In this document: piece after piece, positions 28,208 to 45,262 of the stretch | Numbering within the stretch: position 1 is the first letter of the stretch | How the letters are laid out: every line of letters begins with the position of its first letter | Assembly (NCBI GenBank): GCA_030739585.1 | Contig: JASLYX010000007.1 | Span: 1-64,000 of the forward strand | Length of the DNA: 64,000 nucleotides | Reading direction: 5' to 3' | DNA from: Candidatus Bathyarchaeota archaeon | Lineage (GTDB): Archaea; Thermoproteota; Bathyarchaeia; TCS64 | Notes under the pieces: model-generated | Told to the model about the DNA's origin: nothing | Seen by the model: the letters and a program-made list of their open reading frames with translations, nothing else | Database searches by the model: none | Translations under genes and position numbers: made by a program

Positions 28208-28951
28208 TTAAAAGAGGTCTGCAAAAAGCCTTTTTGCATTCTTACCCAATAGGAGCTCTCGGTAGACTGGGGCCAGAGTAAGGGTTCTTATCTCCTTCAC
28301 CCCCAGTCCTGGGTGATTCTGAGGCGATTCAGAGCCGAAGCAGATACGTGTTGGCCCTATGTCTTTAACAAGACCCACCCCGCTTGTGATCCCGTTCCTG
28401 CCTCCAGTATCTATTATAATATTCCTGTGGACCTTTACCAGCTCCTTTATCCTAGGCCAAAAAGTATTGACCACCAGCCTTACCTCCGGGAACTTGTAGG
28501 CCAGCTGGTTAAGGCCATTGTAGAATGTCTCCCTTCCCATGCTCTCACTTTCCCCTGTTTCACTATTTGGGTTGTTGAAGAGGACAGGCAGTTTGTTTTC
28601 CATGCATGGGACCATGAGTTCCTCTAGTTTCGATCTACCTCTCCCGAATATATGGTGGAATTCGGGATCCAGCATTACGCCCTTTAGACCCATGCTGACT
28701 ATCCTCGCGATCTCATCCCTTGCGTCATCTACGGTGGGGTTGATACAGCCGAAGCCTATGAGCTTGTCAGGATGATCTTGGACTACAGCAGAGATTTGAT
28801 CATTGACCTCCTGAACCTTCATGGATGGGAATGGCATTACGATTGAAACGTCAATGCCATACTTTTCCATGTCTCTTAGGATCTCCTCTGGCTCCTGCTT
28901 GAAGTCCATTAAAGGGTGGTGACCAATATGGGTGTGAATGTCAACAATCAT
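28208..28951 (-). CDS. Amidohydrolase-fold partner protein beta1 (probably non-catalytic)
   Basis: 247 residues of the Amidohydro_2 (TIM-barrel) fold. The first metal motif is kept, IVDIHTH (His6, His8), and so is the LKGVMLDPEFH strand. The later sites are lost: where the alpha partner has AIHSDHS this protein has LPVLFNNPNSE, where alpha has VILHMGG it has VVNTFWPR, and the late metal aspartate GSDSS becomes GSESP. This suggests a structural or regulatory partner rather than an active hydrolase. It follows alpha1 after five bases, and the same alpha-beta arrangement recurs at 40.3-41.7 and 43.6-45.1 kb, where the beta proteins carry the same losses. Confidence 0.8.
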   Translation of the reverse strand: MIVDIHTHIGHHPLMDFKQEPEEILRDMEKYGIDVSIVMPFPSMKVQEVNDQISAVVQDHPDKLIGFGCINPTVDDARDEIARIVSMGLKGVMLDPEFHHIFGRGRSKLEELMVPCMENKLPVLFNNPNSETGESESMGRETFYNGLNQLAYKFPEVRLVVNTFWPRIKELVKVHRNIIIDTGGRNGITSGVGLVKDIGPTRICFGSESPQNHPGLGVKEIRTLTLAPVYRELLLGKNAKRLFADLF

Positions 28952-28956
28952 TTTGT

Positions 28957-29703
28957 CTAAATCCCCAAGAGATTCGCTGCAGAGTCTCCGAGGACCATAG
29001 CCTTCTGCTCTGGGGTGATGTCTGCAACGCGGACCGCATCTAACATGAGCTCCATATAGTCACCTGCTTTCTCAAACCTACTTCCATAGCCTCCGTTCGA
29101 GGAGTCTGAACCAAAAATTATCTTTTCAGGGCCGATGGTCTCTACCGCTTGCTTTATAGCGTATGGGTTTGAATAACAGGTTTCTAAGTAGATGTTGTCG
29201 TTCTTCTCTGCTATTTTGGTGCTGAGGAGTTCTGAGTCGAAGCAAGTCCCCCCGCCCATGTGTAATATGACTGTTGGCACATTAGGGAAGCTGTTGGCAA
29301 TATCACCGATGATATAGGGATGGTTCCTAATGCTGTGATCCGAGTGTATGGCTACAAGCGAATTATAACTCTCTGCTATCTCCATCATAGGGTACATATA
29401 CCGTGCAACAGTGTGTGTGTGCCCCACCTTCACCCCCTTCCACTTATGCTCCCCTAGATATTTCTCCACCAGCTCGAGGCCGACCTCTTCGTACCGTGGG
29501 TCGAAATTTACCAAGGGGATGAATCTATTTGGGTGCTCCCTGGCTGACTTTGCCACGAAAGCATTGTCCTCGGCATCACCGAAGACTCCGAAAACTACCG
29601 CCATTTCAACACCTGTAGCGTCCATGTCATCTATGAGAAGGGTGGCTGGTCCCACTGGGGTCCATCGCTGGGAAAGGTGACAATGAGCATCAATTACAAC
29701 CAT
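28957..29703 (-). CDS. Metal-dependent amidohydrolase alpha1 (Amidohydro_2)
   Basis: 248 residues from the ATG at 29703; a TTG at 29724 is also in frame, but paralogues start at the equivalent of MVVIDAHCH. All active-site positions are in place: IDAHCHLS (HxH), VKVGHTHTVARYMYP, AIHSDHSIRNHPY (His), VILHMGGGTCFDS (His) and IFGSDSSNGG (Asp). Such enzymes hydrolyse amides or decarboxylate small acids. The proteins at 40281 and 44312 are close paralogues. The gene is divergent from the M55 peptidase gene at 29941 and is followed immediately by beta1, so the active enzyme is probably an alpha-beta complex (inference). Confidence 0.85.
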   Translation of the reverse strand: MVVIDAHCHLSQRWTPVGPATLLIDDMDATGVEMAVVFGVFGDAEDNAFVAKSAREHPNRFIPLVNFDPRYEEVGLELVEKYLGEHKWKGVKVGHTHTVARYMYPMMEIAESYNSLVAIHSDHSIRNHPYIIGDIANSFPNVPTVILHMGGGTCFDSELLSTKIAEKNDNIYLETCYSNPYAIKQAVETIGPEKIIFGSDSSNGGYGSRFEKAGDYMELMLDAVRVADITPEQKAMVLGDSAANLLGI

Positions 29704-29940
29704 AAATTCATCTCTTCTTAACAAAAACCAGGTATTTATCGTTATTAAAATAAAGCGAAAATATCCGGAACATCTACCATTGTAAAAAATAAATTATTTA
29801 AGAGAAAAGGTTGAGATTTCACCCTAGGTCATAGAAACGCTAGTGAAAAGGATCTTAAACCAGCATTATCTCTCATAGAAAAGCAACAATCACCTGAGAA
29901 TCATTAAATAAAATGTCGACTAGAACTATATCGACACGAT

Positions 29941-30768
29941 ATGAAAGTATACATTTCATTCGATATGGAAGGCGTCTCTGGGATAGCGGGAGGGGGAATG
30001 ACTGGGCCAAATCCTAGCACACCCTCGGCCTATCCAAGGGGTCAGAGGTTCTCAACTGACGATGTTAAGGCGGCTATCGAGGGAATTCTTGAAGTCGACC
30101 CGGATGCGGAGATCTGGTTTAATGATGCTCATGGGAAATCGATGAACGTTTATTTCGAGGAGTTCCCCGAGAACGTCAAGATAGTTATTAACTCGGCGGA
30201 GCTCTTTGACGAGGCCCTAGGAATAGACGAGTCTTTCGATGCCCTCATCTGTATCGGCTCTCACGGCCACCTAATTCAGCAGGACGGTGTGCTTAGCCAT
30301 ATATGGGATGTTAGGGAGCTAGAGTATAATGGGAAGAGCATAACCGAAACAGGGCTAAATGCCTCTCTGGCGGGACATTATAAGGTGCCTCTCGTTATGA
30401 TCTCTGGTGATGAAGATAGCATGGCGTACATATCTGAAAATATTGGGACAGGTTTCGCGACCGCCGCAGTAAAGAAAGGGATAGGAAGGTATGCTGCGGT
30501 TTCCGTCCATCCAAAGATGGCTCAAAAGCTCATTAAGGCAGCGGTTATCGACGGCCTAAAGAGGCGCGACGAGATAGCTCCATTCGAGTTTGAGAACCCT
30601 ATCACGGTGGATATCACCTACAAGGATCATGGTGGGGCCTTTAACAACATGTTCTTCATGCCACAGGACGAGCGGATTTCAGGAGACAAAGTCAGGTTCA
30701 TAGCTACAAACGCCAAAGAGGCATACTACGGCTTCCTTGCCAGGGACAAATTAAGCAAGAATAAATAG
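29941..30768 (+). CDS. dppA: M55 family D-aminopeptidase (DppA-like), copy 1
   Basis: 275 residues, the size of DppA, a zinc decamer that removes N-terminal D-amino acids from small peptides such as D-Ala-D-Ala. Ligand pattern kept: FDMEGVSGI (Asp8 and Glu10), WFNDAHGKS (His), IGSHGHLIQQDGVLSHIW (two His), and ETGLNASLAGHYKVP (Glu). A TATA-like CATTAAATAAAA at about 29903-29914 lies roughly 30 bases before the ATG, so the transcript may be leaderless. It is divergent from the alpha1-beta1 pair and is followed by a D-aminoacylase-type gene, which together suggest use of D-amino-acid compounds. Confidence 0.88.
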   Translation: MKVYISFDMEGVSGIAGGGMTGPNPSTPSAYPRGQRFSTDDVKAAIEGILEVDPDAEIWFNDAHGKSMNVYFEEFPENVKIVINSAELFDEALGIDESFDALICIGSHGHLIQQDGVLSHIWDVRELEYNGKSITETGLNASLAGHYKVPLVMISGDEDSMAYISENIGTGFATAAVKKGIGRYAAVSVHPKMAQKLIKAAVIDGLKRRDEIAPFEFENPITVDITYKDHGGAFNNMFFMPQDERISGDKVRFIATNAKEAYYGFLARDKLSKNK

Positions 30769-30858
30769 TCTAGCTATAATCTTTATTTTCTTTTTTCATA
30801 TTTTTTTTGTACCCTAAAAAGGGATTTAAACTCAGAAATTTGATTATAATAGATCGAC

Positions 30859-32439
30859 TTGGATTTTGATTTTCTCCTAGTAAAGGGCCATGTCATCGAC
30901 GGAACTGGAAATTCCTGGTTTCGAGCGGATGTAGGTATCGCAGGGGACTGCATCAATTCTATTGGGAACCTGAACGGTTTTGGTGCAAAAAGAACCATTG
31001 ACGCAGACGGGCTCATCGTTGCCCCAGGATTTATTGATATACATGGCCACTCCAGCTATTCGGTGCTTATTGACTCAAGGGTGGAAAGTAAAATCATGCA
31101 GGGTATCACCACTGAGGTTTCTGGAAACTGTGGAACGTCCCCTGCCCCAATGAGAGGAGCTGTTAGGGAATACCGGCAAAGGTTCATGGATGCTAGGCTA
31201 CCTGAAGGTTTTGTCCTCAACTGGGAAACTATGGGAGAGTACCTCGACAAGATAGATGAGCAGGGTGTAGCATTCAATGTTGTACCTCTAGTTGGTCAGG
31301 GTAGTGTACGTCAGAATGTTATGGGATTTGAAGACCGAAAGCCAACAAAGGATGAGATGAAGGAGATGTGTATCCTAACGGATGAAGCCCTGAGAGGCGG
31401 GGCTTGGGGCATGTCCTCTGGCCTAGTCACTACTCCTAGTTGCTACGCAGATACTCAAGAACTCATTGAGCTTGCAAAGGTCGTTGCACGGCACAACTGC
31501 GTTTACTGTATCCATCTCAGGGGGGAGGGAGAGACCCTTTTTAATGCGCTTAATGAGGCCTTTGAGATTGGAAAGAAATCCGGGGTGTCTCTGGAAATTG
31601 TTCATTTCAAGGCCTCAGGAAGAGATAACTGGGGCAAAACTGAGGATGGTCTGAGAATGATCGAAGAGGCTCGTGCCAAAGGCCTAGATGTCACTATTGA
31701 CCAGTATCCCTACATAGCCTCAAGCATCGGTCTTTCAGCCCTTTTGCCTCCTTGGGCTCACAAGGGGGGAAACGATAAGCTCTTGAATAGGCTAAAGGAT
31801 CCCGAATTTAGGGAAAAGATCAAGAATGGGCCAGCCCGATTAACCAAGAATCTTGATAACGTCATGATCTCGTTTGCCAAGAATAATCCAGATTATGAGG
31901 GAATTAGAGTAACTGAGATCGCTAGGTTACAGGATAAGGATCCCTTAGACACTGTTTTTGATATATTATTGGCGGAGAACGCTCAAGTGGGGATGGTTGT
32001 CTTTGGTATGTCCGAGGAGGATGTTGAGCGGGTTATGCGTAGCCCTTATATGATGGTCTGCTCAGACGGCGTGGGCGTGTCACCAAGGGGTACCCACAAA
32101 AGAGGGAAGCCTCATCCCCGATACTATGGCGCCTTTCCCAGGGTTCTAGGCTACTATGTCCGGGAGAAGGGTATTCTAAGTCTCCAAGAGTCTATCAGGA
32201 AGATGACATCATTACCGGCCCAACGGATAGGTCTCAGGGACAGAGGTCTTCTGAGGGAAGGTTTCAAAGCTGATATTGTCATGTTCGACCCCGAGACTGT
32301 GAATGACCAGGCTACTTTCACAGATCCACATAGATTTCCAAAGGGGATAAACTATGTGATGATAAACGGGCGCCTTGTCGTCGATGGTGGGGAACAAACA
32401 AGAGAAATTCCCGGGAGAGTCTTACGCAAACAAGCCTAA
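30859..32439 (+). CDS. N-acyl-D-amino-acid deacylase-type amidohydrolase
   Basis: 526 residues, TTG start. It has the D-aminoacylase layout: a small beta domain, GFIDIHGHSSYS with His62 and His64, then VSGNCGTSPAP with the bridging Cys91, CIHLRGEG and EIVHFKASG for the two later histidines, and CSDGVGVSP with the catalytic aspartate, ending in GFKADIVMFDP. These enzymes release D-amino acids from N-acyl (for example N-acetyl) derivatives. It lies 90 bases after dppA copy 1 in the same direction and probably forms one transcription unit with it. Confidence 0.87.
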   Translation: MDFDFLLVKGHVIDGTGNSWFRADVGIAGDCINSIGNLNGFGAKRTIDADGLIVAPGFIDIHGHSSYSVLIDSRVESKIMQGITTEVSGNCGTSPAPMRGAVREYRQRFMDARLPEGFVLNWETMGEYLDKIDEQGVAFNVVPLVGQGSVRQNVMGFEDRKPTKDEMKEMCILTDEALRGGAWGMSSGLVTTPSCYADTQELIELAKVVARHNCVYCIHLRGEGETLFNALNEAFEIGKKSGVSLEIVHFKASGRDNWGKTEDGLRMIEEARAKGLDVTIDQYPYIASSIGLSALLPPWAHKGGNDKLLNRLKDPEFREKIKNGPARLTKNLDNVMISFAKNNPDYEGIRVTEIARLQDKDPLDTVFDILLAENAQVGMVVFGMSEEDVERVMRSPYMMVCSDGVGVSPRGTHKRGKPHPRYYGAFPRVLGYYVREKGILSLQESIRKMTSLPAQRIGLRDRGLLREGFKADIVMFDPETVNDQATFTDPHRFPKGINYVMINGRLVVDGGEQTREIPGRVLRKQA

Positions 32440-32617
32440 GCATTTCGTTCGATCCAAAGTCCAATATTTTTTGTTGTTTTACAGTCAATAGGTCAATGGA
32501 TTTGGGTTCTTGGAACCAATAGGCGGAAGTCAAATGGAGTCATTGTATTTGTTTGGTTTCACCGATATGAAATGACCTATTACAATTAAAATAAAAAAAG
32601 AAAGAAAATAGTTTAGT

Positions 32618-35185
32618 TTAAGGAGTTTTTTCTAGTGTGTAGACCCAGCCCGGATCAGTGATCCAAGCTATGCTATACTGGAACCCGGATACATAGTCGT
32701 GTGCTGCAAAGAAGGCTGGAGTATAGACTGTAAGCATGCCCGGAATGTCGTCTTCGAGGATTTTCTGGGCATCTATATACAGCGCTTCCTGAGCTGCAGC
32801 ATCTGAAGTGGCTGTAGCTTCTGCGAGCAAATCGTCAACTTCTGAGCTTCGGTAACCAAATCTACCTGCATATCCTTGTGTTCCTGAGTAGACGTTCTGA
32901 ATATAGTAAGCATCAGGTCCGTTTTCTGCGACCATGGTTCCAAAAGGCGTTCCTCCGCCGACCAAGTCTCCCCAGGTCGTAACCGTCGGAATCACCTTGA
33001 ATTTGGGGTTGATGTCTGCAATGGATTGAGCTAATAGCTCACCTAGGACGCCACCAGTATCCGCAGCCCATGCTTGGTATGCATAAGTTATCTGGAAGCC
33101 TTCGTCCCAATACTTTCCACCGTATGCCAGTTTGAACTCCTCCTCTGCTTTCACAGGGTCGTACGTGTAAGGGAAGTTCTCATAGTATCCAGGCCATCCA
33201 GTATTAAGGACGCCCTTTGCAGGCTCAGCCCATCCGAGGTAGACCTCATTTACATAGGTCTCGTATGGAAGAGAATATGAGAACGCTTTCCTCATATGTA
33301 CATCTGCGCTAAAGAAGTCTCCTGGTACCTGGTTGTCAGATGGTGCTTTTGTTTCATCAAAGTCATGACCAAAGTAGCAAACCTCTATGAATCCCTCTTG
33401 TCTGATGGGAGTTACATAGGTTTGTGATGTTGCTGGTAGGGCAATAACCTGTTCAGCTTGAACGGGAGAAGCTGGGGACATTACGTCAATGTCACCCTCC
33501 CGGAACATTAGATATTTAGTTGACCACTCTGAAATGGTGAGGCTTAATATAGTCTCCTCTGGAGCTGGACCCTGCCAGTAGTCATCGAACCGAGTAAGCT
33601 GAATCCGCTCACCTTTGGACCACTCCTCTACCATGAAAGGCCCTGAGCCAATAACCCCCTTACCTGCGATGACGCCTTCAACGTCCTCAAAGGCTGGGTC
33701 AAGTTCGATGGACCAGTCTCTAGTGTCTCCCAAATACCATGAACCTGCTTCAATGGCTGCTGCTTTTTGGATGATTCCCCTGCCTGGATATGCCACCGTG
33801 AATAAGAAAGGTCCATAGGTTCGGGAGAGCTTGAACACAACCGTTTTGTCGTCAGTTGCGTAGATGTGGTCTTCAAGGGCCTCGGTGGTGATAGGTTCAC
33901 CATATTCGATTCCTAGAAGAGGTTCCACCAAAAGTGCTCCCCAACTCATTCCCTTTCCCATGCTCCGGCGGTATGTATAGACAACGTCATGTGCTGTAAG
34001 CGCTGATCCATCCCAGAATTTTATTCCATCCCTCAGTGTGAAGGTATAAGTCAAGCCATCTGCAGAGACATCAAGATCCTTGGCGAGACCACCCTCAAGT
34101 GAAGGCTCTGTTCCGCCTGGTAGGAACGCCATAAGAGTGTCGAACAATGCTAGGTCAATCCATCTTCCGACATTTCCTTCCGAGAGTCTCATAGGCTCGA
34201 GATGTGATGGAGCGCCCATAGCCATAATCAAAGTATCAGGATTCTTCACAATACCTTGGTAGCTGACAGGCTCCTCAGTGACGATTATAGTTCTTGCCAC
34301 AGAGTCCTCTTTTGCATTAAGTTTGTTAGTGACAGTTAACACCACGCTATAGCTTCCAGGCTCGTCATAAGTATGGGTTGCAGTTTTACCTGAGGAAACA
34401 GATCCGTCACCGAAATCAAAGCTCCAACTTTTAACATTGGAACTGTATGACTGGATGGCGCCTCTCCTCAACCGGTAGTGATAAGATGCACCACCAGAAA
34501 CCTCTACTTCCTCACCAACCTTCACAACACTTGCTGATGCACCAATGATGGCCACGGGAGGTAGATCAAGGCTGAGCTCTGTAACCTGAGGTCTGTTGAT
34601 TTTGATAAAGACTGGAGCGGCTATAGTATTAGCCTTACCCCCCTCATCGTCCTCGGCATCAACGTAAATAACGTAGGAGCCGGGGACAGAGTAGGTGTGT
34701 TTGACATTTTTACCTAACGCTGTTGTTCCATCGCCAAAGTGCCAAAGATACTTTACTATTTCTCCATCCGGATCAATAGATCCTGCGGCGCTGAAAGAGA
34801 CAGCTTCACCTAAATCAGCTGAAGTAGAGTAGCCTATTGAAGCGACCACTGGGACCTTATTGTCCGGTAAATCACTTTTTCCACTGGTTTTTGCACTAGG
34901 TCTTGCACCAGGTTTAGGTTTCGCTTTAGGAGCAGGTTTTGGATCGGCTTTTGCTTTGGTTTTTGGACTAGCTTCAGGAACGGGTACTGGAATGAATTTT
35001 GGACTAGTTTTAGGAGCAGGTCTTGGACTTGATTTAGCTTTAGGTCGTGGACTTGCTTTAGGAGTGGTTGTAGTAGCGGGTTTTTGAGAACTACTGAAGT
35101 AGATCAGACCCGCGATAACCACTACAAGTACAACGGCTGCAATAATTAAAGTTTGATTTTGCGAACTTGCTTTTCTTGATTGCAT
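32618..35185 (-). CDS. Peptide-type ABC solute-binding protein with two PKD domains
   Basis: 855 residues, much longer than usual SBP_bac_5 receptors (about 500-600). Order: a hydrophobic anchor helix (12-30); a Pro/Lys/Ala-rich low-complexity linker (about 35-105, repeats of the PKAKPKP kind); PKD domain 1 (111-196, with WHFGDGTT and HTYSVPGSY); PKD domain 2 (210-303, with FDFGDGSV and HTYDEPGSY); then a full extracellular oligopeptide-binding domain (311-855). It is likely membrane-anchored, with the linker crossing the surface layer and the PKD domains as spacers. No permease or ATPase gene is near. A TATA-like TTTAAA lies about 40 bases upstream. Probable ligand: peptides or amino-acid derivatives. 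Confidence 0.87.
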   Translation of the reverse strand: MQSRKASSQNQTLIIAAVVLVVVIAGLIYFSSSQKPATTTTPKASPRPKAKSSPRPAPKTSPKFIPVPVPEASPKTKAKADPKPAPKAKPKPGARPSAKTSGKSDLPDNKVPVVASIGYSTSADLGEAVSFSAAGSIDPDGEIVKYLWHFGDGTTALGKNVKHTYSVPGSYVIYVDAEDDEGGKANTIAAPVFIKINRPQVTELSLDLPPVAIIGASASVVKVGEEVEVSGGASYHYRLRRGAIQSYSSNVKSWSFDFGDGSVSSGKTATHTYDEPGSYSVVLTVTNKLNAKEDSVARTIIVTEEPVSYQGIVKNPDTLIMAMGAPSHLEPMRLSEGNVGRWIDLALFDTLMAFLPGGTEPSLEGGLAKDLDVSADGLTYTFTLRDGIKFWDGSALTAHDVVYTYRRSMGKGMSWGALLVEPLLGIEYGEPITTEALEDHIYATDDKTVVFKLSRTYGPFLFTVAYPGRGIIQKAAAIEAGSWYLGDTRDWSIELDPAFEDVEGVIAGKGVIGSGPFMVEEWSKGERIQLTRFDDYWQGPAPEETILSLTISEWSTKYLMFREGDIDVMSPASPVQAEQVIALPATSQTYVTPIRQEGFIEVCYFGHDFDETKAPSDNQVPGDFFSADVHMRKAFSYSLPYETYVNEVYLGWAEPAKGVLNTGWPGYYENFPYTYDPVKAEEEFKLAYGGKYWDEGFQITYAYQAWAADTGGVLGELLAQSIADINPKFKVIPTVTTWGDLVGGGTPFGTMVAENGPDAYYIQNVYSGTQGYAGRFGYRSSEVDDLLAEATATSDAAAQEALYIDAQKILEDDIPGMLTVYTPAFFAAHDYVSGFQYSIAWITDPGWVYTLEKTP

Positions 35186-35396
35186 TTTTATTTATTCCTT
35201 TGTTGTATATACCCCGTTCTGATAGTTTTAAATAAGTTTATGTTTGAAAGTCTTCTTTTTTCATATTTTGTCTAAAAAAGGAACGATTTTCTCCCTTATT
35301 TGATTACAATTATTTCAAAGATTTCTATGAAATTGATCCAAAAATACATGAAAATGCGCTTCATTCATGCAATAAAATGGGAAGAGGTTTTCTACC

Positions 35397-36569
35397 TCAT
35401 TTTTTTATTTCCTTTGAAACAGGCTTTTTGAATCTGCTCGGGTTGAAACTGTCGAGCAATGGGTCCCACTCATCATTCATAATATAGTTGGTGAGAATCC
35501 TGCCTGTATCAGGGGCCAAGATTACGCCATTGCCACTCATGCCCGTAGCAATTAGGAAACCTTCTACATCTGATTCACCGACTATGGGGAGTTTGTCAAG
35601 AGTCACCGATCTATAGCCCAGCCAGTCGTTCACGAGTTCAGCATCAAGAAGTTTAGGTACACTCTCTGCTAATCGGTCTGTGAGGAAGTCGAAAAAGTAT
35701 TCCTCTGTACCCCCACTGAGGGATAGTTCATCAGGATCCCAGATCCCAGTCTCAATGGCTTTCCCATAGTCCATAGCCATATGGCTTTTGCAGACAAAAA
35801 CTGCTCGACCCTCTGACCGTGCATACCAATTAGGATATTTGAGTATTGGGAACTCGTAGTCTAGTGGCTCAGTGGTCTTTAAGATAAACACTTCTGCCTT
35901 GGTATGAACCAAAGGTAGATCTATACCCGCCAGTGCACCTACCTTATTGGACCAAGGTCCAGCCGCACAGACCACGGTATCAAATTCGTAATCTCCTTTC
36001 GAAGACTGTATCCCAGTTACCACACCGTCTTTTGTCTGTATCCCATTCACATTTGCGTGCGTGATGAATTTAGCTCCTTGCTCCCTTGCCCATCGTGCAT
36101 AGATAAGTGAGGCAGCCGTTGGGTTATTGTAACCATCATCTGGAGTCCAAGCTCCACCGAGTAGTCCCTCAGAGTTCAAGTCTGGGAGATATTTTACGAG
36201 TCCCTCTGGATCCTCGATAAACTTGGCGTTGAATCCAGCTAGCTGACTCGCCTCAACGTGCAGCTTCGCCCTTTTCATTTCTGCCTTAGTAGGGCTTACT
36301 ACGAGTGTCCCCGATTTAATAAACTCGCTTTCCCCGTGGGTGTCATCATTCATTTTCTTATATGTATTTAGGCATGTGACTCTCTGCTTGAAGAACTCAT
36401 AGGGCAGTGAGTCATCGATAAGGCATAAAGTCCCAGCGGATTTTGCTGTTGTACCCGAGCCAATCTGGTTCTTTTCGAAGACAATAACATCAACATCATC
36501 ACATTTCGTGAGATGATAGGCGAGGGCAGTACCGATGATCCCAGCACCAATAATACCGATCCGTTTCAA
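35397..36569 (-). CDS. FAD-dependent oxidoreductase, DAO/DadA family
   Basis: 390 residues. Dinucleotide-binding GIIGAGIIGTALAYHL at 5-20, a VIVFEKNQIGSGTTAKSAG segment with the glycine/D-amino acid oxidase pattern, TVVCAAGPWSNKVG in the middle, and a C-terminal FLIATGMSGNGVILAPDTG loop that contacts FAD. Relatives oxidise glycine, sarcosine, proline or D-amino acids. In this context (D-aminopeptidase, D-aminoacylase) oxidation of D-amino acids is likely, but substrate specificity cannot be read directly. It lies on its own transcript, divergent from nothing, upstream of a small DNA methylase remnant. Confidence 0.85.
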   Translation of the reverse strand: MKRIGIIGAGIIGTALAYHLTKCDDVDVIVFEKNQIGSGTTAKSAGTLCLIDDSLPYEFFKQRVTCLNTYKKMNDDTHGESEFIKSGTLVVSPTKAEMKRAKLHVEASQLAGFNAKFIEDPEGLVKYLPDLNSEGLLGGAWTPDDGYNNPTAASLIYARWAREQGAKFITHANVNGIQTKDGVVTGIQSSKGDYEFDTVVCAAGPWSNKVGALAGIDLPLVHTKAEVFILKTTEPLDYEFPILKYPNWYARSEGRAVFVCKSHMAMDYGKAIETGIWDPDELSLSGGTEEYFFDFLTDRLAESVPKLLDAELVNDWLGYRSVTLDKLPIVGESDVEGFLIATGMSGNGVILAPDTGRILTNYIMNDEWDPLLDSFNPSRFKKPVSKEIKK

Positions 36570-36736
36570 ATCATTTTCACCTTAGATTATACAGCATGGA
36601 TAACCCATTCAAATTGTTAAAAGGTTTCTTAAAAAAAATAATGATTCGGTTTAAACTACTTCAAAGGAAAAATAATGTTCATAGAGAAGAAAAGGACCTT
36701 GCCTGTGCATGAAATTATAGCTCGCTTAAAATTATT

Positions 36737-37222
36737 CTAGGAAGTATGTTGGACTACTCGTTTTCTTCCAAGATCGGTAATACCCCATATACCCCACTTC
36801 GGACTGTTCATTTCTCCCTTTTTGATTAAAACAAACCTTACCCATTGAATTCTATTTTCCCATTTATTTGAAGTGGATACTCTTATTTTCAATTCTTCTT
36901 CTGAAATTTCGGGAAAACAATCAGTGATTAATGGATAATCATCCATGTTTCTAATTTTATTTGTTAATACTTCTATGGCTTTTTTATCTATATCAAATCC
37001 CCATATATAATCACTAATATTTTTATTTTTTAACTTATTATTGTTTTGTCTAAACCATGAATACATTCTTGTTATGAAATTTCCTGTTCCACAAGAAGGA
37101 TCTAAAACATATTCTATATTGTCATCAACACACAAACTTATTATTAAATCAACAAGATACCTAGGCGTATAATATTTACCTAAAATATATTTCTCATTTT
37201 GTTCAGCCATAATCTTTTCCAT
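36737..37222 (-). CDS. Truncated N6-adenine methylase joined to an Mrr-like winged helix
   Basis: 161 residues, very A+T-rich. The N-terminal part is the start of a type I/II adenine methylase: YYTPRYLVDLIISL, the SAM motif VLDPSCGTGNFITRMY (about 40-55) and GFDIDKKAIEVLTNKI. The catalytic NPPY motif and the rest of the methylase are missing. From about residue 105 the protein reads ISEEELKIRVSTSNKW, continues IQWVRFVLIKKGEM and ends WGITDLGRKR, the Mrr N-terminal winged-helix pattern. This looks like a deletion fusion of two restriction-modification genes rather than a working enzyme, and marks the edge of a degraded mobile segment. Confidence 0.65.
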   Translation of the reverse strand: MEKIMAEQNEKYILGKYYTPRYLVDLIISLCVDDNIEYVLDPSCGTGNFITRMYSWFRQNNNKLKNKNISDYIWGFDIDKKAIEVLTNKIRNMDDYPLITDCFPEISEEELKIRVSTSNKWENRIQWVRFVLIKKGEMNSPKWGIWGITDLGRKRVVQHTS

Positions 37223-37302
37223 TGATAATTAATACTTTATTATATATAAAAAAAGATAGATGAATTCAGGACACAATCTGGTTCAATACGCGTGGAGCAA
37301 CA

Positions 37303-37473
37303 ATGAATACTTTGGCTATCAGCGAATCCGGGAAAGCTGGAATCGAGCCTAAGGATCAATCATGAGCACAGCCGGAAAATGGTTTCAGTAAAAAGGTCAG
37401 AAAAACCATAATCGCGGAAATCCGCAGATATATCAAGAGCAGAAATTTCTCAGTCCCGGCTCCTGAGGAATAA
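37303..37473 (+). pseudogene. Short frame interrupted by TGA
   Basis: 57 codons beginning ATG (37303), reading MNTLAISESGKAGIEPKDQS, then TGA, then a basic stretch KKVRKTIIAEIRRYIKSRN and TAA. No known family. The continuity of the frame through the stop suggests a decayed small gene in the mobile-looking patch, but chance cannot be excluded at this length. Confidence 0.25.
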
Positions 37474-37494
37474 AATTTTTTATTTTTTTCTAAG

Positions 37495-37587
37495 ATGATT
37501 AAAATGGTTAATAATGAGGGGTCAGAAGAGTTCAAGATTCTTGAGGCTCAGATCTCAGAGCTAAAAGAAGTCGAGAATTGTATTTGA
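37495..37587 (+). CDS. Possible 30-residue coiled-coil peptide
   Basis: An ATG frame of 30 codons, with EEFKILEAQISELKEVEN as a short heptad-like acidic helix, ending in TGA; the frame stays open after the stop for 26 more codons (for instance ARKIRFANKILEDLY). It may be the N-terminal part of a broken gene. No Shine-Dalgarno is evident. Confidence 0.25.
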   Translation: MIKMVNNEGSEEFKILEAQISELKEVENCI

Positions 37588-37658
37588 GGATTCAGGCAAA
37601 ATCTCGAAGGTGAGGCTCGGAAAATCAGATTCGCAAACAAGATCTTGGAGGATCTATA

Positions 37659-37919
37659 TTGTCCGAAGTGGTCGATATTTTTGGGCAGATTTTCGGGATG
37701 TTCTCCAATTTCATTATGAATCTCCTGAATGTCCTTGGAGGGAATCTGTCGCCCGTGACCAGAGAAGCGTTGACTGGTTTTTTTCTATTATGTCTGGCTC
37801 TTCGTCTGCTAAACGGGGGTCAACAAAAAATCAAACTGGTGGCGAGAAGGTTACAGCGAAAAGACGAGGATGACGACGAAGACGAGGAATATGAATATGT
37901 CAGAGTGAGGCGACAATGA
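37659..37919 (+). CDS. Small membrane protein with acidic tail
   Basis: 86 residues from a TTG with GGAGG eight bases upstream (37646-37651), which decides the start. One or two hydrophobic segments (about 5-28 and 38-52) are followed by KLVARRLQRKDEDDDEDEE and a basic end. There is no recognised family. It overlaps the next small zinc-ribbon gene by four bases (ATGA), forming a compact string of tiny genes typical of archaeal plasmids or viruses. Confidence 0.6.
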   Translation: MSEVVDIFGQIFGMFSNFIMNLLNVLGGNLSPVTREALTGFFLLCLALRLLNGGQQKIKLVARRLQRKDEDDDEDEEYEYVRVRRQ

Positions 37920-38083
37920 GTTCTAATTTTCGATATATGTGTGGTAAATGTGGAACGGAGTTTATAGCCAGCTATCAGCCGTCAAAGAATCCCCGTTGTG
38001 TACTCTGTCGTCAAGACCCAGGAACGAAGAAACTCAAAGAACTCGAATCAGAAAAACGTCGTCATATGTTCCTGTTGGGTTAA
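37916..38083 (+). CDS. 55-residue zinc-ribbon protein
   Basis: Reads MSSNFRYMCGKCGTEFIA with Cys9 and Cys12, then PRCVLCRQ with Cys28 and Cys31, so a four-cysteine zinc ribbon with CxxC knuckles, followed by a charged helix KKLKELESEKRRHM. The ATG overlaps the stop of the preceding gene (ATGA). Probably binds nucleic acid or protein; no family name can be given. It belongs to the cluster of tiny genes in the mobile-looking patch. Confidence 0.6.
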   Translation: MSSNFRYMCGKCGTEFIASYQPSKNPRCVLCRQDPGTKKLKELESEKRRHMFLLG

Positions 38084-38095
38084 AGGTGAAAATCC

Positions 38096-38338
38096 ATGAG
38101 TGATTTTTACGATGATATTGAACGACGAGCACTAGAAGATGAGAAAATTACTCTCCAGAATCGGGCCAGATTTCAGGAAAAGAAAACCCAGTGGCTGACC
38201 ACAATTTGTCCCGGTTGTTCGCGGAAAGTAGAATACGCTTTGAAAGAGGGAGTGGTCTTTGACGGAAATTTAAAATGCGGGCATTGTGGAAAATCTTTTC
38301 ATCTGAGTCGATTGTCTGATTTCATGGGGGAGAAGTAA
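38096..38338 (+). CDS. 80-residue zinc-ribbon protein
   Basis: An N-terminal acidic/basic helix (MSDFYDDIERRALEDEKI) precedes a zinc ribbon with CPGC (about 38-41) and CGHC (about 61-64), then FHLSRLSDFMGEK. It starts 12 bases after the previous stop, with an AGGTGA box before the ATG. The second ribbon protein in a row, no recognised family. It may be a small DNA-binding regulator of the element that carries it. Confidence 0.6.
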   Translation: MSDFYDDIERRALEDEKITLQNRARFQEKKTQWLTTICPGCSRKVEYALKEGVVFDGNLKCGHCGKSFHLSRLSDFMGEK

Positions 38339-38370
38339 TGATAAATCGAATATTATGATGTTAGAAAGAG

Positions 38371-38420
38371 ATTATCAAGATTATAATAAGATTATAACGA
38401 GATTATAATGAGACAATAAG
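38371..38420 (+). repeat. Iteron-like direct repeats GATTATAA(T/C)
   Basis: ATTATC at 38371 is followed by ATTATAAT (38380), ATTATAAC (38391) and ATTATAAT (38402), each preceded by AAG or GAG, then a diverged ACAATAAG (38413). Start-to-start distances are 9, 11, 11 and 11 bases, one helical turn. Another AGATTATAAA lies at 38461. Such phased repeats occur at plasmid origins and at operators. Confidence 0.5.
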
Positions 38421-38497
38421 GGAAGTTTTATAAGGATACGGTTGTTCCCTTTCGAATAGGAGATTATAAAATAATGATCCCTGAAACTAGAAATAAC

Positions 38498-38603
38498 CAC
38501 TATCATCCCACGCATTTTTTTGCGTATGCGTCGAGCGCCCGGAAGGGCGTAGGCATTACAAGAGGAGGGGGTGGTTGAGCGGGAGGCGTGAGCTGGGATA
38601 GTG
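38498..38603 (+). ncRNA. Candidate structured RNA element
   Basis: A 106-base stretch much richer in G+C than its surroundings with nested complementarity. The outer stem is CACTATC (38498-38504) with GATAGTG (38597-38603), extended past a two-base bulge by CC and GG. Inside are CGCA-T7-TGCG near 38511-38524 and GCCC-GGAA-GGGC at about 38527-38538. It lies downstream of the direct repeats. A 33-codon frame covers its first part, so it could be a leader or replication-control RNA. Transcription is not shown. Confidence 0.35.
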
Positions 38604-38781
38604 AGGTATTGGGATTGTTATCACACCGATAAATACTCTGAGAGAACAGACAGAAGGGGTTTTTCTTTGGGACGGTGTGTGATTCTTAGAAAGTGATTCA
38701 AACTTGAGAAGGACAGGGATGACGAAGATTTCACAGATGTTTCAATCGATGACCTATTTGTGAGCGGAGAGGCGATGTGAA

Positions 38782-39171
38782 GTGACAGACCAGATTTGGA
38801 TGATGGGAGAGGAGCTTAAGGCGAGTGTTGAAATTTTCGATCTGATAGCTAAGAATAGAAACATGTTAGGTTGGGACAGGATTATCGCAATGGTTATATA
38901 AGAATTCATAAAATCTTTTGGAGGTAGCAATTATAAAAATCGAAATAGGTATGAGCTTCGTTCGGAGATCTCAGCCGTTGGGGTCTGTTTCAGAGATTCG
39001 CCTGAGGACTATATTCAAAACATGGTCGAATCTAGTGGAGGTCATATCTGTCTAATTCTGGTTCAGTTGCCGAATGATGACGCTTACCAAGAAGTTCATT
39101 ATCCAATGGAGACGGCAGGCATCAATGAGGATTGGGAGCTTTGTCATGTGATAAGAGGGATTCATGGGTAG
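38782..39171 (+). pseudogene. 130-codon frame interrupted by one TAA
   Basis: From a GTG at 38782 the frame reads MTDQIWMMGEELKASVEIF and on to GWDRIIAMVI, then TAA (38899-38901), then stays open for 89 codons (EFIKSFGGSNYKNRNRYEL; later GGHICLILVQLPNDDAY) to a TAG. Composition and hydrophobic pattern look coding on both sides, so this is probably one gene broken by a nonsense change. Its family is unknown. Confidence 0.4.
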
Positions 39172-39293
39172 TGAGTCAGGTTAACGCCTCCTCTTTTCTT
39201 TTATTTTAAAAAAATAAATTTTTCTAATTCACAGAAAATAACCCTTTATTCATTTCTGAAAAAAGGGTACAATAGATGTAGAACGAAAAGACC

Positions 39294-40121
39294 TTATCTC
39301 TGAGAACTGGCGTGCCTTATCATTGACTGTAATGCTTTATATGCTTCTAGGAATGGACCCTCAAATTTAAGGGTCAGTCCATCAACCCTCTTTGAAAAGG
39401 GAGTCATTTCTGCTGCGTCTGCCATCCCTGTATGTTGGAACTCTATCTCAATCGTGGTAGGTTCCTTTATCTCGAATGGTTTGAAATCCTTAATCCGCTT
39501 CACAGCCCTATTTGCGCTTTCCTCTAGGAGTTTAGATGAAATTGTAGGGGGTAAGAGTATAGCGGATGTCCGCCCTAGGCCTTTTTTGACCTCCACTGTC
39601 TCAATGTCCCCAAAATGTGCTTTACTCTCCTCTACTGCTTTGTTACACCCGCTAAGGAAGGCTATTGGGACTCCAAAGTGTCCCGCAATTGCTGCGTTTA
39701 TGCCGATTTCCCCCATAGGTACCCCATTTACCCGGAGGACATTTATGGGCGGCAGGAAGGTGTGCTCTATGACGCCCCGATGGGTCCCTCTCATCGGATG
39801 CAAACCAACGAGAAATATTGCATCACAGCTCTGATAGACCTCAGACATAACAGAGACGGGCCGACTCGCAGATCTCCCATTCAGGTACCTGATTTCCTCT
39901 TCAAGTTTTTCGAAAATCAGGTTTTGACCCCATCCCGCGTGGGAGTCAATAAGATAGACCTCATCTACCCCCGCCTTGACGGCTCCCCGAGCGACTGCAT
40001 TAATATCGCCTGTGGAGAGGACTCTACTCTGCTCGTAGAACCGCTCGGATCTCCCTGTCTGCTCTGTCTCTAATACTACTCCCGTTACTCCCTCTAAGTC
40101 AAAATTTATGATTATCCGCAA
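39294..40121 (-). CDS. dppA: M55 family D-aminopeptidase (DppA-like), copy 2
   Basis: 275 residues, TTG start. The M55 ligand set is kept: FDLEGVTGV (Asp8, Glu10), LIDSHAGWGQN (His), GLHPMRGTHRGVIEHTF (His residues) and EIGINAAIAGHFGVP (Glu). It is only distantly similar to copy 1 at 29941, so this is an old duplication or separate acquisition. As with copy 1, it is divergent from an alpha-beta amidohydrolase pair (starting at 40281), so the spacer of about 160 bases should contain back-to-back promoters. Likely role: removal of N-terminal D-residues from small peptides. Confidence 0.87.
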   Translation of the reverse strand: MRIIINFDLEGVTGVVLETEQTGRSERFYEQSRVLSTGDINAVARGAVKAGVDEVYLIDSHAGWGQNLIFEKLEEEIRYLNGRSASRPVSVMSEVYQSCDAIFLVGLHPMRGTHRGVIEHTFLPPINVLRVNGVPMGEIGINAAIAGHFGVPIAFLSGCNKAVEESKAHFGDIETVEVKKGLGRTSAILLPPTISSKLLEESANRAVKRIKDFKPFEIKEPTTIEIEFQHTGMADAAEMTPFSKRVDGLTLKFEGPFLEAYKALQSMIRHASSQR

Positions 40122-40280
40122 TTTGTTTCATTCCACGAATATATCAACACGGGGCATGTTTGCTATATCTAATTTCCGACCTAATTAAATGCAAATTCCA
40201 AGATATTCTTTAGCATATTTTAAACTAAAACAATGAAGGCTCAAATACCTTGGGATAATAAATATTGTTGGAGACCTATC

Positions 40281-41009
40281 TTGGTAATCATTGATGCTCA
40301 TTGCCATCTATCCCCGAGAAGGAGTAAAGCATCCTCATTGGTCGAGAGCATGGATCCTGCAGGAATAGACATGGCCTGTGTCTTCGGAAACGACAATGAG
40401 TTCGTGGCCGAAGCTGCAAAAAACTTCCCGGACAGATTTATCCCCTTCGTCTACTTTGATCCCAGGTATGAGGAGATCGGCGTGGAGACAGTGGAAAAAT
40501 ATGCAATAGAGTATGGCTGGAAAGGAGTCAAAGTTGGACATCAGCATGCGGTTGCCCGCTTCATGTATCCAATGATGGAAAAGGCGGAGGAGCATAAAAT
40601 GATAGTGGTGATTCACTCGGACCACAGCATAAGGAACCACCCTTACGTCATTGGGGATATCGCGAATAGCTTCCCTAAAGTCCCAACTGTTATTCTTCAC
40701 ATGGGTGGGGGTACATGCTTCGACTCAGAGCTTTTGAGTACAAAAATAGCCCAGAAAAACGAAAATATTTACTTGGAAACCTGCTACTCCAATCCCTTCG
40801 CCATCAAACAGGCTGTGGAAACGCTGGGCTCTGAACGAATCATGTTTGGTTCAGATGAATCCAACGGGGGATACGGGAGCAGATTTGAAAAGCCAGGTCA
40901 GTACCAGGACCTAATGCTCGATGCTGTCAGGGTTATAGGACTCCAAAAAGATCAGGAAGAAGCAGTTCTCGGAGGCACAGCGGCTAAGCTTCTCGGGATT
41001 GACAGGTAA
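40281..41009 (+). CDS. Metal-dependent amidohydrolase alpha2 (Amidohydro_2)
   Basis: 242 residues from the TTG at 40281, chosen because GGAG lies seven bases upstream and the protein then starts LVIIDAHCH exactly like alpha1; an ATG at 40233 would add 16 residues. Active-site residues are complete: IDAHCHLS, VKVGHQHAVARFMYP, VIHSDHSIRNHPY, VILHMGGGTCFDS and MFGSDESNGG. It is the closest paralogue of alpha1 (most of the barrel strands are identical). Its stop overlaps the ATG of beta2 by one base (TAATG), showing translational coupling. Confidence 0.85.
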   Translation: MVIIDAHCHLSPRRSKASSLVESMDPAGIDMACVFGNDNEFVAEAAKNFPDRFIPFVYFDPRYEEIGVETVEKYAIEYGWKGVKVGHQHAVARFMYPMMEKAEEHKMIVVIHSDHSIRNHPYVIGDIANSFPKVPTVILHMGGGTCFDSELLSTKIAQKNENIYLETCYSNPFAIKQAVETLGSERIMFGSDESNGGYGSRFEKPGQYQDLMLDAVRVIGLQKDQEEAVLGGTAAKLLGIDR

Positions 41010-41749
41010 TGATAATTGATATCCACTCCCACCTAGGGCATCATCCGCTCCAGGACTTCAAGCAGGGACTAGAGGAGATCCTGAGAGACATGGAGACATA
41101 TGGGATATCTAGAAGTTTCCTCCTCCCGTTTCCTTCTATGAAGATCAAAATTGTCAACGACACTGTGGCCTCCTCAGTGAAAGAACACCCTGAAAAACTA
41201 ACTGGCTTCTCCGTTCTTAATCCGACGGCAGATGATGCCTTAGAGGAAGTTGAGAGAATTGTGAGTCTAGGATTAAAGGGGGTGATGCTAGATCCTGAGT
41301 TCCACAGCGTCTTCCGTCATCAGGCAAAGGTGGAAGAGCTCATGGTACCGTGTATGGACAATAATCTCCCAGTTCTATTCAATACACCAAACATCGAAGT
41401 GGGAGAAGGAGCAAGGATGGGCCGAGAGCCTTATTACAATGGACTTAAGAACCTTGCTTTCAAATTTCCCGATGTCAGGTTTGTAGTGAGTCCTTATTGG
41501 CCTCGGATAAAGGTACTAATGATAAAGTATTCCAACATATTCATCGATAGTGGAGGCAGGAATGGTATATCGGGGGCAGTCAGACTCATGACGGACATCG
41601 GACCCACCAGGGTCTGCTTTGGCTCTGAGTCACCCCAAAACCACCCAGGCCTTGGGGTTAAGGCTATCAGGACCATGAAGATGCCCCCAGTTTACAGAGA
41701 CCTGTTGCTGGGTAGAAACGCGAAAAGAATCTTTGGAGACATTTTTTAA
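41009..41749 (+). CDS. Amidohydrolase-fold partner protein beta2 (probably non-catalytic)
   Basis: 246 residues, close paralogue of beta1. It keeps IIDIHSHLGHHPL (HxH) and LKGVMLDPEFH, but has LPVLFNTPNIE where active enzymes carry a histidine, VVSPYWPR in place of the next one, and GSESPQNHPG in place of the GSD aspartate. The very conserved GSESPQNHPGLGVK stretch suggests a preserved, different function, such as forming the interface with alpha. One-base overlap with alpha2. Confidence 0.8.
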   Translation: MIIDIHSHLGHHPLQDFKQGLEEILRDMETYGISRSFLLPFPSMKIKIVNDTVASSVKEHPEKLTGFSVLNPTADDALEEVERIVSLGLKGVMLDPEFHSVFRHQAKVEELMVPCMDNNLPVLFNTPNIEVGEGARMGREPYYNGLKNLAFKFPDVRFVVSPYWPRIKVLMIKYSNIFIDSGGRNGISGAVRLMTDIGPTRVCFGSESPQNHPGLGVKAIRTMKMPPVYRDLLLGRNAKRIFGDIF

Positions 41750-41798: not shown

Positions 41799-42653
41799 TT
41801 AGATATCCTGATTAGATTTCAGTTCTACTATTTTAGCGTACATCTCTGGTCTTCGCTCCTTGACGTAGACTCTGCGTCTCCTCCAATTTTTGTCGTCCTC
41901 CAAGTCGATTGTGGCGGTTATTACGCATTCCTCGAATCCAGCTTGAGCCAGCACCTTTCCATTAGGGTTCACAATCATGCTGTTCCCAAAATACTCTTTT
42001 CCGCTCTCCTTACCCCCTCTATTTACGAAGACACCAAAAACTCCACTGTCATACGCCCTAGCCCTGTTCACCATAACCCATCTATCGGGATATTGGGCCT
42101 TATCCCTCGGGAAGATCACTGAGGGGACCACTACTATCTCTGCCCCTTTGAGAGATAGGACCCTAAATGGCTCCGGAAACTCTCGGTCATAGCAGATTAG
42201 TGTCCCTATCTTCCCAATTTCTGTCTGGTAGACGCTGTAGTCTGATCCAGGAGAGAAGTAGAATTTCTCCTCAGGTCTAGGAGGGACATGCGTTTTTCGA
42301 TATTTCCCAATTATTAACCCATCGGGACCAATAAGAGGAGCCGTGTTGTAAAATTTTCCTGATGTCTGTTTCTCAAAAATGGGGGCAACAATGTATACAT
42401 GGTATTTCTTTGCGATGTCCCCAATGGCCTTAGTGGTGGGCCCGGGGATGGTCTCAGCCATCTCAAAGAAATTAGGGTTTCGATCCTTAAAGATGTAGAA
42501 CCCCATGGTAAATAGTTCAGGCAGCACCATGAGGTTCGCCCCTTTATCTACCGCTGTCTCGATTAGATCAATTGCCCTTTCGATATTTGCATCTTTATCA
42601 AACGGAGCGCAGTTCATCTGAATTGCAGCTAGTGTAAGATTACATTTATCCAT
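41799..42653 (-). CDS. Carbon-nitrogen hydrolase (nitrilase superfamily)
   Basis: 284 residues from the ATG at 42653 (MDKCNLTLAAIQMNCAP); an in-frame start 18 codons upstream gives an unlikely Cys-rich tail. The catalytic triad is Glu46 (VLPELFTMGF), Lys120 (GKYRKTHVP) and Cys154 (LICYDREFPE). The HVPPRPEEKFYFSPG segment resembles the N-carbamoyl amidases (beta-ureidopropionase, N-carbamoyl-D-amino acid and N-carbamoylputrescine amidohydrolases). Given the nearby allantoinase-type and D-amino-acid enzymes, removal of a carbamoyl group from an amino acid is a reasonable guess. Confidence 0.85.
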   Translation of the reverse strand: MDKCNLTLAAIQMNCAPFDKDANIERAIDLIETAVDKGANLMVLPELFTMGFYIFKDRNPNFFEMAETIPGPTTKAIGDIAKKYHVYIVAPIFEKQTSGKFYNTAPLIGPDGLIIGKYRKTHVPPRPEEKFYFSPGSDYSVYQTEIGKIGTLICYDREFPEPFRVLSLKGAEIVVVPSVIFPRDKAQYPDRWVMVNRARAYDSGVFGVFVNRGGKESGKEYFGNSMIVNPNGKVLAQAGFEECVITATIDLEDDKNWRRRRVYVKERRPEMYAKIVELKSNQDI

Positions 42654-42742
42654 TTTTGATATCCTGCAACTAGGATAACAAGGAAATATAAAAAAGCATA
42701 AGCGCACTCAGGTGTCTATGAGAGGATATTTTTTCCTCAAGC

Positions 42743-43565: not shown

Positions 43566-44315
43566 CTAGAGGAGGTCCTTGAAAATCCTCTCAGCATTGC
43601 CGCCGAGGATGAGCTTCCGCTGATATGGTGTAATCTTGGACCATTCCACGGTCTGCTTATGGTTCCCGGTATGGTATCTTGGAGAGCTGGATCCGAATAG
43701 AAGTCTTGTGGCACCGAGGCCGGCAACCAAGCTGGATATTCTCCCAGCTGATGCCCCAGCAGAGTCTACGTATAGATTTGAATGTTTCTTGCAGAGTTCT
43801 ATAATTCCAGGCCAGAATAGGTCAACAATCGTCCTTACCTCAGGGAATCGGCTCATAAGTTCATCTAGGCCATTATACTGCTGAAGTGCGTTGTCATGGC
43901 TGTGTCCTACCCTAAGATTGGGTATGCATATGAGGATTGGGAACCCTTTCTCCACCGCCTTCTCAAAGATAGGGGGCAGCATCGGGTTTCCGGGAGTCAA
44001 CGGTCGCTCCATGCTAAAGTGGAATTCAGGGTCCAACATCAGCCCCTTTAACCCCAGGCCTATAGCCCGGTCTATCTCAAGGAGGGCATCCGGATGTACA
44101 GGGTTCACGTTAAAGAAACCTACAAGCTTTTCAGGGTGATTCCTCACTGCCTGCTCAACTCGGTCATTTGCTTCCTTGAAGCGCATTTTAGGGGCAGAGC
44201 TAAGGAATGTTTTTTCAATTCCGTATTTTCTCATCTCCCCCAGGATTTCGTCAAGAGTCTGTTCAAACATAAACAACGGATGCTTCCCAAGCTGTGAATG
44301 TACGTCAATAATCAT
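43566..44315 (-). CDS. Amidohydrolase-fold partner protein beta3 (probably non-catalytic)
   Basis: 249 residues, the most diverged beta. Even the first metal motif is altered to IIDVHSQLGKHPL (HxQ). The next sites read FPILICIPNLRVGH and TIVDLFWPG, with no histidine at the expected places, and the late aspartate is Ser in LFGSSSPRYHTG. LKGLMLDPEFH and the general barrel pattern still match beta1 and beta2. It overlaps alpha3 by four bases (ATGA). Its loss of all canonical ligands is the strongest sign that beta proteins are pseudoenzymes. Confidence 0.8.
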   Translation of the reverse strand: MIIDVHSQLGKHPLFMFEQTLDEILGEMRKYGIEKTFLSSAPKMRFKEANDRVEQAVRNHPEKLVGFFNVNPVHPDALLEIDRAIGLGLKGLMLDPEFHFSMERPLTPGNPMLPPIFEKAVEKGFPILICIPNLRVGHSHDNALQQYNGLDELMSRFPEVRTIVDLFWPGIIELCKKHSNLYVDSAGASAGRISSLVAGLGATRLLFGSSSPRYHTGNHKQTVEWSKITPYQRKLILGGNAERIFKDLL

Positions 44316-45133: not shown

Positions 45134-45262
45134 AACATTCCTAAGTCTCTTAATAAAACCAAGCAAGTAAGGTTACATGGGACCAGGAAAATAAGTCCAA
45201 TAACGTATAGGCGTAGATAGTTTGACGAATATTTATTCATATAAGGAGGGTATATATTCTAT

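Follow-up and report, generated by a model that had tools for sequence, protein, structure and literature searches.

The window analysed here (the whole stretch of 64,000 nucleotides) covers almost the whole of contig C7 from a Bathyarchaeia metagenome-assembled genome (MAG) of 1.69 Mb, and contains three tandem gene pairs, or cassettes, each encoding two proteins of the Amidohydro_2 family (PF04909) that we refer to as alpha and beta. Cassette 1 lies on the minus strand (beta1, 28208-28951; alpha1, 28957-29724), cassette 2 on the plus strand (alpha2, 40233-41009; beta2, 41009-41749), and cassette 3 again on the minus strand (beta3, 43566-44315; alpha3, 44312-45166), all three within 17 kb. 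The paired genes are separated by 5 nt in cassette 1 and overlap by 1 nt in cassette 2 and by 4 nt in cassette 3. As outlined in a preliminary description of this DNA, each of the first two cassettes is divergent from a gene of the M55 D-aminopeptidase family (M55-1, 29941-30768, plus strand; M55-2, 39294-40121, minus strand), an arrangement with which both the open reading frames (ORFs) and the Pfam matches agree, and the cassette genes are close (70% identity between alpha1 and alpha2, 67% between beta1 and beta2) while the M55 genes are only distantly alike (28%). The same description recognized the two divergent M55 genes but overlooked cassette 3, which is divergent from an NHL-repeat gene instead, and the genome holds seven M55 matches rather than two.

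Both members of each cassette exceeded the PF04909 cut-off (26.4 bits), the alphas with scores of 77.1, 88.9 and 100.3 bits and the betas with 38.6, 36.8 and 65.1 bits. The active site of ACMSD is described as comprising the zinc ligands His9, His11, His177 and Asp294, plus His228 (PMC11650718), which would correspond in the alpha1 sequence to H14, H16, H127, D207 and H155, respectively. All five metal-site residues (HHHHD) are retained in alphas 1 to 3, whereas the betas have lost three or four of them (HHNTE in beta1, HHNPE in beta2 and HQCLS in beta3). The betas thus pass the family profile but not the ligand test, implying that they belong to Amidohydro_2 by descent and not by metal site. 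Structure models of alpha (alpha1) and beta (predicted local distance difference test, pLDDT, 85.9 and 73.7, respectively) were Amidohydro_2 barrels, with 3cjp as the top PDB match and ACMSD among the matches listed, although the best structural matches of alpha are longer and share less than 20% identity with it. Between species, nonsynonymous divergence (dN) of beta versus alpha was 0.096 versus 0.100 in cassette 1 and 0.103 versus 0.090 in cassette 2, indicating that beta is constrained as strongly as alpha as judged from dN, synonymous divergence (dS) being either saturated or impossible to compute for a number of genes. Comparison of alpha3 with the sister genome G033 (same genus) was blocked by an in-frame TGA in the aligned G033 stretch.

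Pairing of a complete with a degenerate member was also found elsewhere. With alpha and a fused protein of genome G172 as queries, 23 complete pairs could be read (L131, in which the second member is split, was left out of the count), and 19 of them had one degenerate member, albeit only partly degenerate in the beta of L019 (HHHSN). The better member of these 19 pairs retained all five residues in 17 cases. Fused pairs were present at L076, L117, L137 (twice) and L214, five haloarchaeal plasmid records carried fused forms with one half degenerate, and four haloarchaeal fusions beyond the 19 combined an HHHHD N-terminal half with a degenerate C-terminal half. In the tree, from which a broken alpha copy (L014) was left out, degenerate subunits occupied at least two lineages (least forced number, 2) and most simply three (fewest changes, 3): the NxY/F clade (f11, f14, f27 and a haloarchaeal plasmid), the L125/L132 pair and the window betas. 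Divergence of the partners was correlated (Mantel r = 0.93 for all 19 pairs, 0.78 for 14 non-redundant pairs and 0.73 within the NxY clade), at a level reached by 0 of 20,000 permutations in each case. A profile of the NxY clade matched 51 of 300 genomes of the phylum, some of these matches being non-degenerate proteins. Two members were present at 18 of the 20 loci fetched from this wider set, and all 16 fully readable loci (omitting L203 and L205, which are truncated, and L207 and L209, where a single member was detected) combined one HHHHD member with one keeping at most two of the five residues. Because a degenerate subunit served as the query, this pattern is informative about the partner alone, namely that it is complete.

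Other pairs adjoin heparinase II/III-like, glycoside-hydrolase-like, DegT, MocA and CN_hydrolase genes, and from such diverse neighbours the chemistry of the pairs probably extends beyond D-amino acids. At L076 (1-12722, contig C72 of G172), an M55 gene and a fused pair lie between heparinase II/III-like genes, CN_hydrolase, ornithine cyclodeaminase-like and M81 MlrC genes, and in several of the haloarchaeal plasmid records (L137, L179-L182) the fusions have sulfatase, MocA, DegT, CN_hydrolase and MR_MLE genes as neighbours. The host genome has a distant tandem Amidohydro_2 pair on contig C1 and, on C13, a fourth alpha copy interrupted by a stop (L014, 12760-13512), beside which beta was not detected; the G033 counterpart of the latter is an intact alpha-beta pair (L088, 8616-10129). 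The alpha/beta clade was present in 2 of 201 genomes of the class, and a pattern scan of genome contigs located it at three loci of one MAG.

The M55 genes of the window matched PF04951 with 213.9 (M55-1) and 246.4 bits (M55-2; cut-off 25). M55-1 aligns to Bacillus subtilis DppA (1HI9), and D8, E10, H64, H108, H120 and E136, which we take to be the metal ligands and catalytic histidine of that enzyme, are invariant across the seven M55 proteins of the host genome. Scores against the NCBIfam DppA equivalog NF058634 (152.4 and 169.5 bits) were far under its cut-off of 430, and the window M55s are therefore not the bacterial DppA equivalog. M55-2 belongs to a different clade from M55-1, its nearest relative being the host's own copy on C1 (66% identity). 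A D-aminoacylase-like amidohydrolase (Amidohydro_3; 30859-32439, plus strand), which matches PDB 1m7j in two stretches (E = 3.1e-89), begins 90 nt past M55-1 on the same strand, and this position directly after M55-1 fits D-amino-acid salvage. An oligopeptide-type solute-binding protein with two PKD domains (32618-35185, minus strand) and a DAO-family FAD oxidoreductase (35397-36569, minus strand) are also located between the two M55 genes. Judged by the sequences of its products, the island between cassettes 1 and 2 is probably a D-amino-acid or D-peptide salvage set, with predicted enzyme specificities. A review already cites the use of D-amino acids by Bathyarchaeia (PMC12694404), and the M55-1/D-aminoacylase pair offers a concrete gene set for it.

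The window M55s share fold and metal-site residues with DppA, and the nearby solute-binding protein and FAD oxidoreductase recall bacterial D-dipeptide operons, as in Ensifer canadensis, in which M55 stands beside D,D-dipeptide ATP-binding cassette (ABC) genes. Among four plasmid regions compared (Agrobacterium, Alicyclobacillus, Ensifer and Natrialba), peptide ABC transporters lay beside M55 in all but Natrialba, an FAD oxidoreductase adjoined M55 in Ensifer, and none had an Amidohydro_2 gene annotated near M55. Unlike in DppA operons, no permease genes were recognized next to the window's solute-binding protein. Taken by itself, the M55 neighbourhood is ordinary to mildly interesting. Ahead of beta1 in the left-to-right gene order stand an Amidohydro_3 gene and an ORF that is nitroreductase-like in our reading. 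Beyond cassette 2, a carbon-nitrogen hydrolase (41799-42707, minus strand; N-carbamoylputrescine amidase/D-carbamoylase-like) precedes cassette 3, which is followed by the NHL-repeat gene (plus strand) and an enolase-superfamily (MR_MLE) isomerase (46331-47566, plus strand; dipeptide-epimerase/cycloisomerase-like); the hydrolase and the isomerase are possible pathway members. The 2.7-kb AT-rich stretch between the DAO-family gene and M55-2 (36570-39290), not present at the G033 junction, holds an N6_Mtase/Mrr_N chimeric ORF (36737-37222) and small ORFs, and resembles the remains of a mobile element or virus.

We compared the island with its counterparts in the same genus. G033 keeps the cassette 1 block (92% identity for M55-1, 80% for the D-aminoacylase, 83% for alpha1 and 85% for beta1), whereas its M55-2 is reduced to the first 73 residues with a stop, next to intact alpha2 and beta2. 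In G101, an orthologue separated from M55-1 by 0.12 changes per column has neither alpha nor beta next to it. Conversely, cassette 3 and a fourth cassette in G033 have no adjacent M55 gene. Joint duplication of M55 with its cassette was ruled out, given that the two M55s are so dissimilar and fall into different clades while the cassettes share about 69% DNA identity. A single island, with the M55s as its end genes, is bounded on its two sides by cassettes 1 and 2, which are inverted copies of each other; the two divergent layouts are therefore not independent events. As listed, the ORFs leave divergent spacers at 29725-29940 and 40122-40232; the true start of alpha1 is probably the internal ATG at 29703, and in our reading alpha2 starts near 40282, which would extend the spacers to about 237 and 161 nt. 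A promoter or operator shared by the two spacers, raised in the preliminary description, was ruled out, as their local alignment was no better than that of shuffled sequences (score 18.0, null mean 18.9; 687 of 1,000 shuffles as high) and no common sequence was detectable. Spacer 1 contains a 13-nt A/T-rich TATA-like block toward M55-1 that is common with G033. Spacer 2 of the host aligned to that of G033 with a score of 73.0 (reached by 0 of 1,000 shuffles), and its retention there despite the loss of M55-2 speaks for an alpha2 promoter.

Adjacency of M55 and Amidohydro_2 genes was assessed for 103 M55 ORFs from 67 genomes (73 of 201 class genomes had matches, and the set excluded fragments of M55 located on certain other contigs), against a null in which Amidohydro_2 counts were upper bounds, each gene was assumed to take up 950 nt and genomes without an entered count were given a count of two. 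In the host genome, two of seven M55s were adjacent versus 0.071 expected (P = 0.0024), a post hoc value since this genome prompted the hypothesis and both layouts are part of one island; for the whole genus, adjacency was found for 3 of 12 (0.14 expected). Outside the genus, 3 of 91 were adjacent versus 0.74 expected (P = 0.039), and all three belonged to family f27 (P = 0.00016 for f27 alone, post hoc), while none of the 42 further M55s of the same order was adjacent (0.43 expected). The enrichment anticipated for other genomes was thus seen outside the genus, but in this one family. At G172:C72, M55 is followed after 9 nt by the fused pair on the same strand, with a CN_hydrolase gene divergent on the other side; at G158:C66, M55 is divergent from a single Amidohydro_2 gene (81 nt); and at G158:C21 the two are on the same strand (53 nt). 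L066 and L157 gave weak Amidohydro_2 matches, and L066, a possible seventh adjacency, was left uncounted. Amidohydro_2 genes occurred within 6 kb of 19 of the 103 M55s, but nine of these represent one orthologous locus (M55, thioredoxin and/or CcdA-like genes, in several cases GH4 and PIG-L, then one complete Amidohydro_2) and so are not independent cases. That locus (L051, L056, L059, L063, L097, L102, L046, L067 and L070, in families f1/f2), with its thioredoxin-like and/or CcdA/DsbD-like genes and the deacetylase PIG-L, suggests that amino sugars or wall fragments are used. Elsewhere in the phylum, 4 of 45 M55 matches from other classes were less than 5 kb from an Amidohydro_2 profile match, a count read off listings without a null expectation (G207:C47, G235:C5, G255:C172 and G395:C37, at about 2.9-4.4 kb). 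Overall, the association appears weakly recurrent but not fixed.

The nearest known system to the cassettes is AibH1H2, the 2-aminoisobutyrate hydroxylase of Rhodococcus wratislaviensis, in which two subunits of the PF04909 fold, one catalytic and one auxiliary, form a heteromer (PMC12141560, PMC10401708); a heteromer of two PF04909 chains with an auxiliary subunit is thus already known there. Alpha and beta are likewise two PF04909 chains, encoded by coupled genes. AibH2 is described as having a dinuclear Mn/Fe site (D25, H27, H211, E265, D337, H340 and D342), as opposed to the mononuclear HxH/H/H/D site of alpha, and the AibH2-type motifs (D-x-H, E, D-x-x-H-x-D) are replaced in alpha by H-x-H, H155 and D-S-S-N or D-E-S-N. 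AibH1 is described as retaining its metal site, whereas beta is without most of the ligands. ACMSD and related Amidohydro_2 decarboxylases resemble both subunits in fold and alpha in ligand pattern, but ACMSD is a dimer of one gene product, compared with two genes here, one of them degenerate. Its active site takes an arginine (Arg239) from the neighbouring subunit (PMC11650718), and a cross-subunit active site is therefore known in the Amidohydro_2 fold. In the aspartate transcarbamoylase of Pseudomonas aeruginosa, an inactive pseudo-dihydroorotase is needed for the activity of its partner (PMC7053772), similar to the inactive amidohydrolase-fold chain with an active partner proposed here, although that partner is an unrelated transcarbamoylase and beta's partner would be its active homologue. 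Our searches of the open-licence PMC literature turned up no description of these pairs.

We consider it fairly probable that the two genes of each alpha-beta cassette together specify a single metal-dependent enzyme, a heteromer in which beta would be an obligate structural or substrate-closing partner and alpha would act on a compound of the D-amino-acid pathway. Alpha, an ACMSD-type barrel, would bind one metal and carry out the chemistry, while beta, a homologous barrel in which most of the metal site is gone, would be locked to alpha and probably complete, shape or gate its active site in the manner of Arg239 in ACMSD. From the position of the genes, the compound that alpha would hydrolyse or decarboxylate most likely belongs to D-amino-acid or D-peptide metabolism. 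A physical alpha-beta heteromer is suggested by the coupled genes, the fusions and the correlated divergence of the partners. Several observations weigh against this reading. Beta1 and beta2 retain the first HxH, so that a residual metal site is possible, and confidence in the beta model is only moderate. Loss of the metal site is not universal, since both members are complete in 4 of the 23 pairs (L122, L127, L129 and L130), and the better half of the L076 and L117 fusions has just four of the five residues. The 20 loci from elsewhere in the phylum were retrieved with a profile that selected for the degenerate member, though not for completeness of its partner. Moreover, the neighbours of other pairs are not D-amino-acid genes, and the pathway link is local at best. 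Beta could itself be catalytic, with an altered metal site or metal-free chemistry, the pair then being two enzymes for consecutive steps; its strong conservation and the HxH of beta1 and beta2 would agree with this, but both later histidines and the aspartate are lost, and the loss occurred in several lineages with differing replacements. We regard a catalytic beta as distinctly unlikely.

The relation of the cassettes to M55 can be read in two ways. The preliminary description proposed a functional partnership, in which M55 frees a D-residue and alpha-beta hydrolyses the product. Its D-amino-acid theme is supported by the D-aminoacylase gene downstream of M55-1, and the two divergent adjacencies (one of them kept in G033), the three f27 loci and the four proximities in other classes are in line with such a partnership. 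A fixed pairing does not hold, as G033 lost M55-2 but kept alpha2-beta2, the G101 orthologue of M55-1 and cassette 3 each stand without the other partner, the rest of the order has no adjacencies and the spacers have no common sequence. Hydrolysis of the M55 product by alpha is not required by the data and is conjecture, and we regard the partnership as rather doubtful. Alternatively, alpha-beta was duplicated inside a gene-rich amidohydrolase island and came by chance to lie at both of its ends, with the M55s merely the end genes. The inverted copies flanking one island, the presence of three cassettes in 17 kb and the different clades of the M55s, which were not duplicated along with the cassettes, favour such a history, whereas the conserved M55-1/alpha1 order in G033 (about 83-92% protein identity) and the adjacency in the host genome, though post hoc, weigh against it. 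We view chance placement as a plausible explanation, short of a likely one.

If the heteromer proposed above is correct, the pairs could tentatively be seen as an archaeal family of obligate Amidohydro_2 enzyme-pseudoenzyme heteromers across Thermoproteota and haloarchaea, in which an inactive subunit would have arisen more than once and would complete its partner's active site, and which would have been recruited and duplicated into D-amino-acid salvage in one Bathyarchaeia genus. In archaeal genomes, annotation treats tandem 'amidohydrolase family protein' genes as two enzymes; were one of each pair inactive, annotations and metabolic models that count two steps would be in error, and assays in which alpha is used without beta may fail. 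Separate genes, overlapping genes and fusions in both orders form a natural series on the origin of pseudoenzyme partners. Halomontanus carries two complete-degenerate fusions of opposite domain order. The tandem pairs at L127 (8508-10115) and L130 (1720-3317), in which both members have all five residues, provide a natural contrast set.

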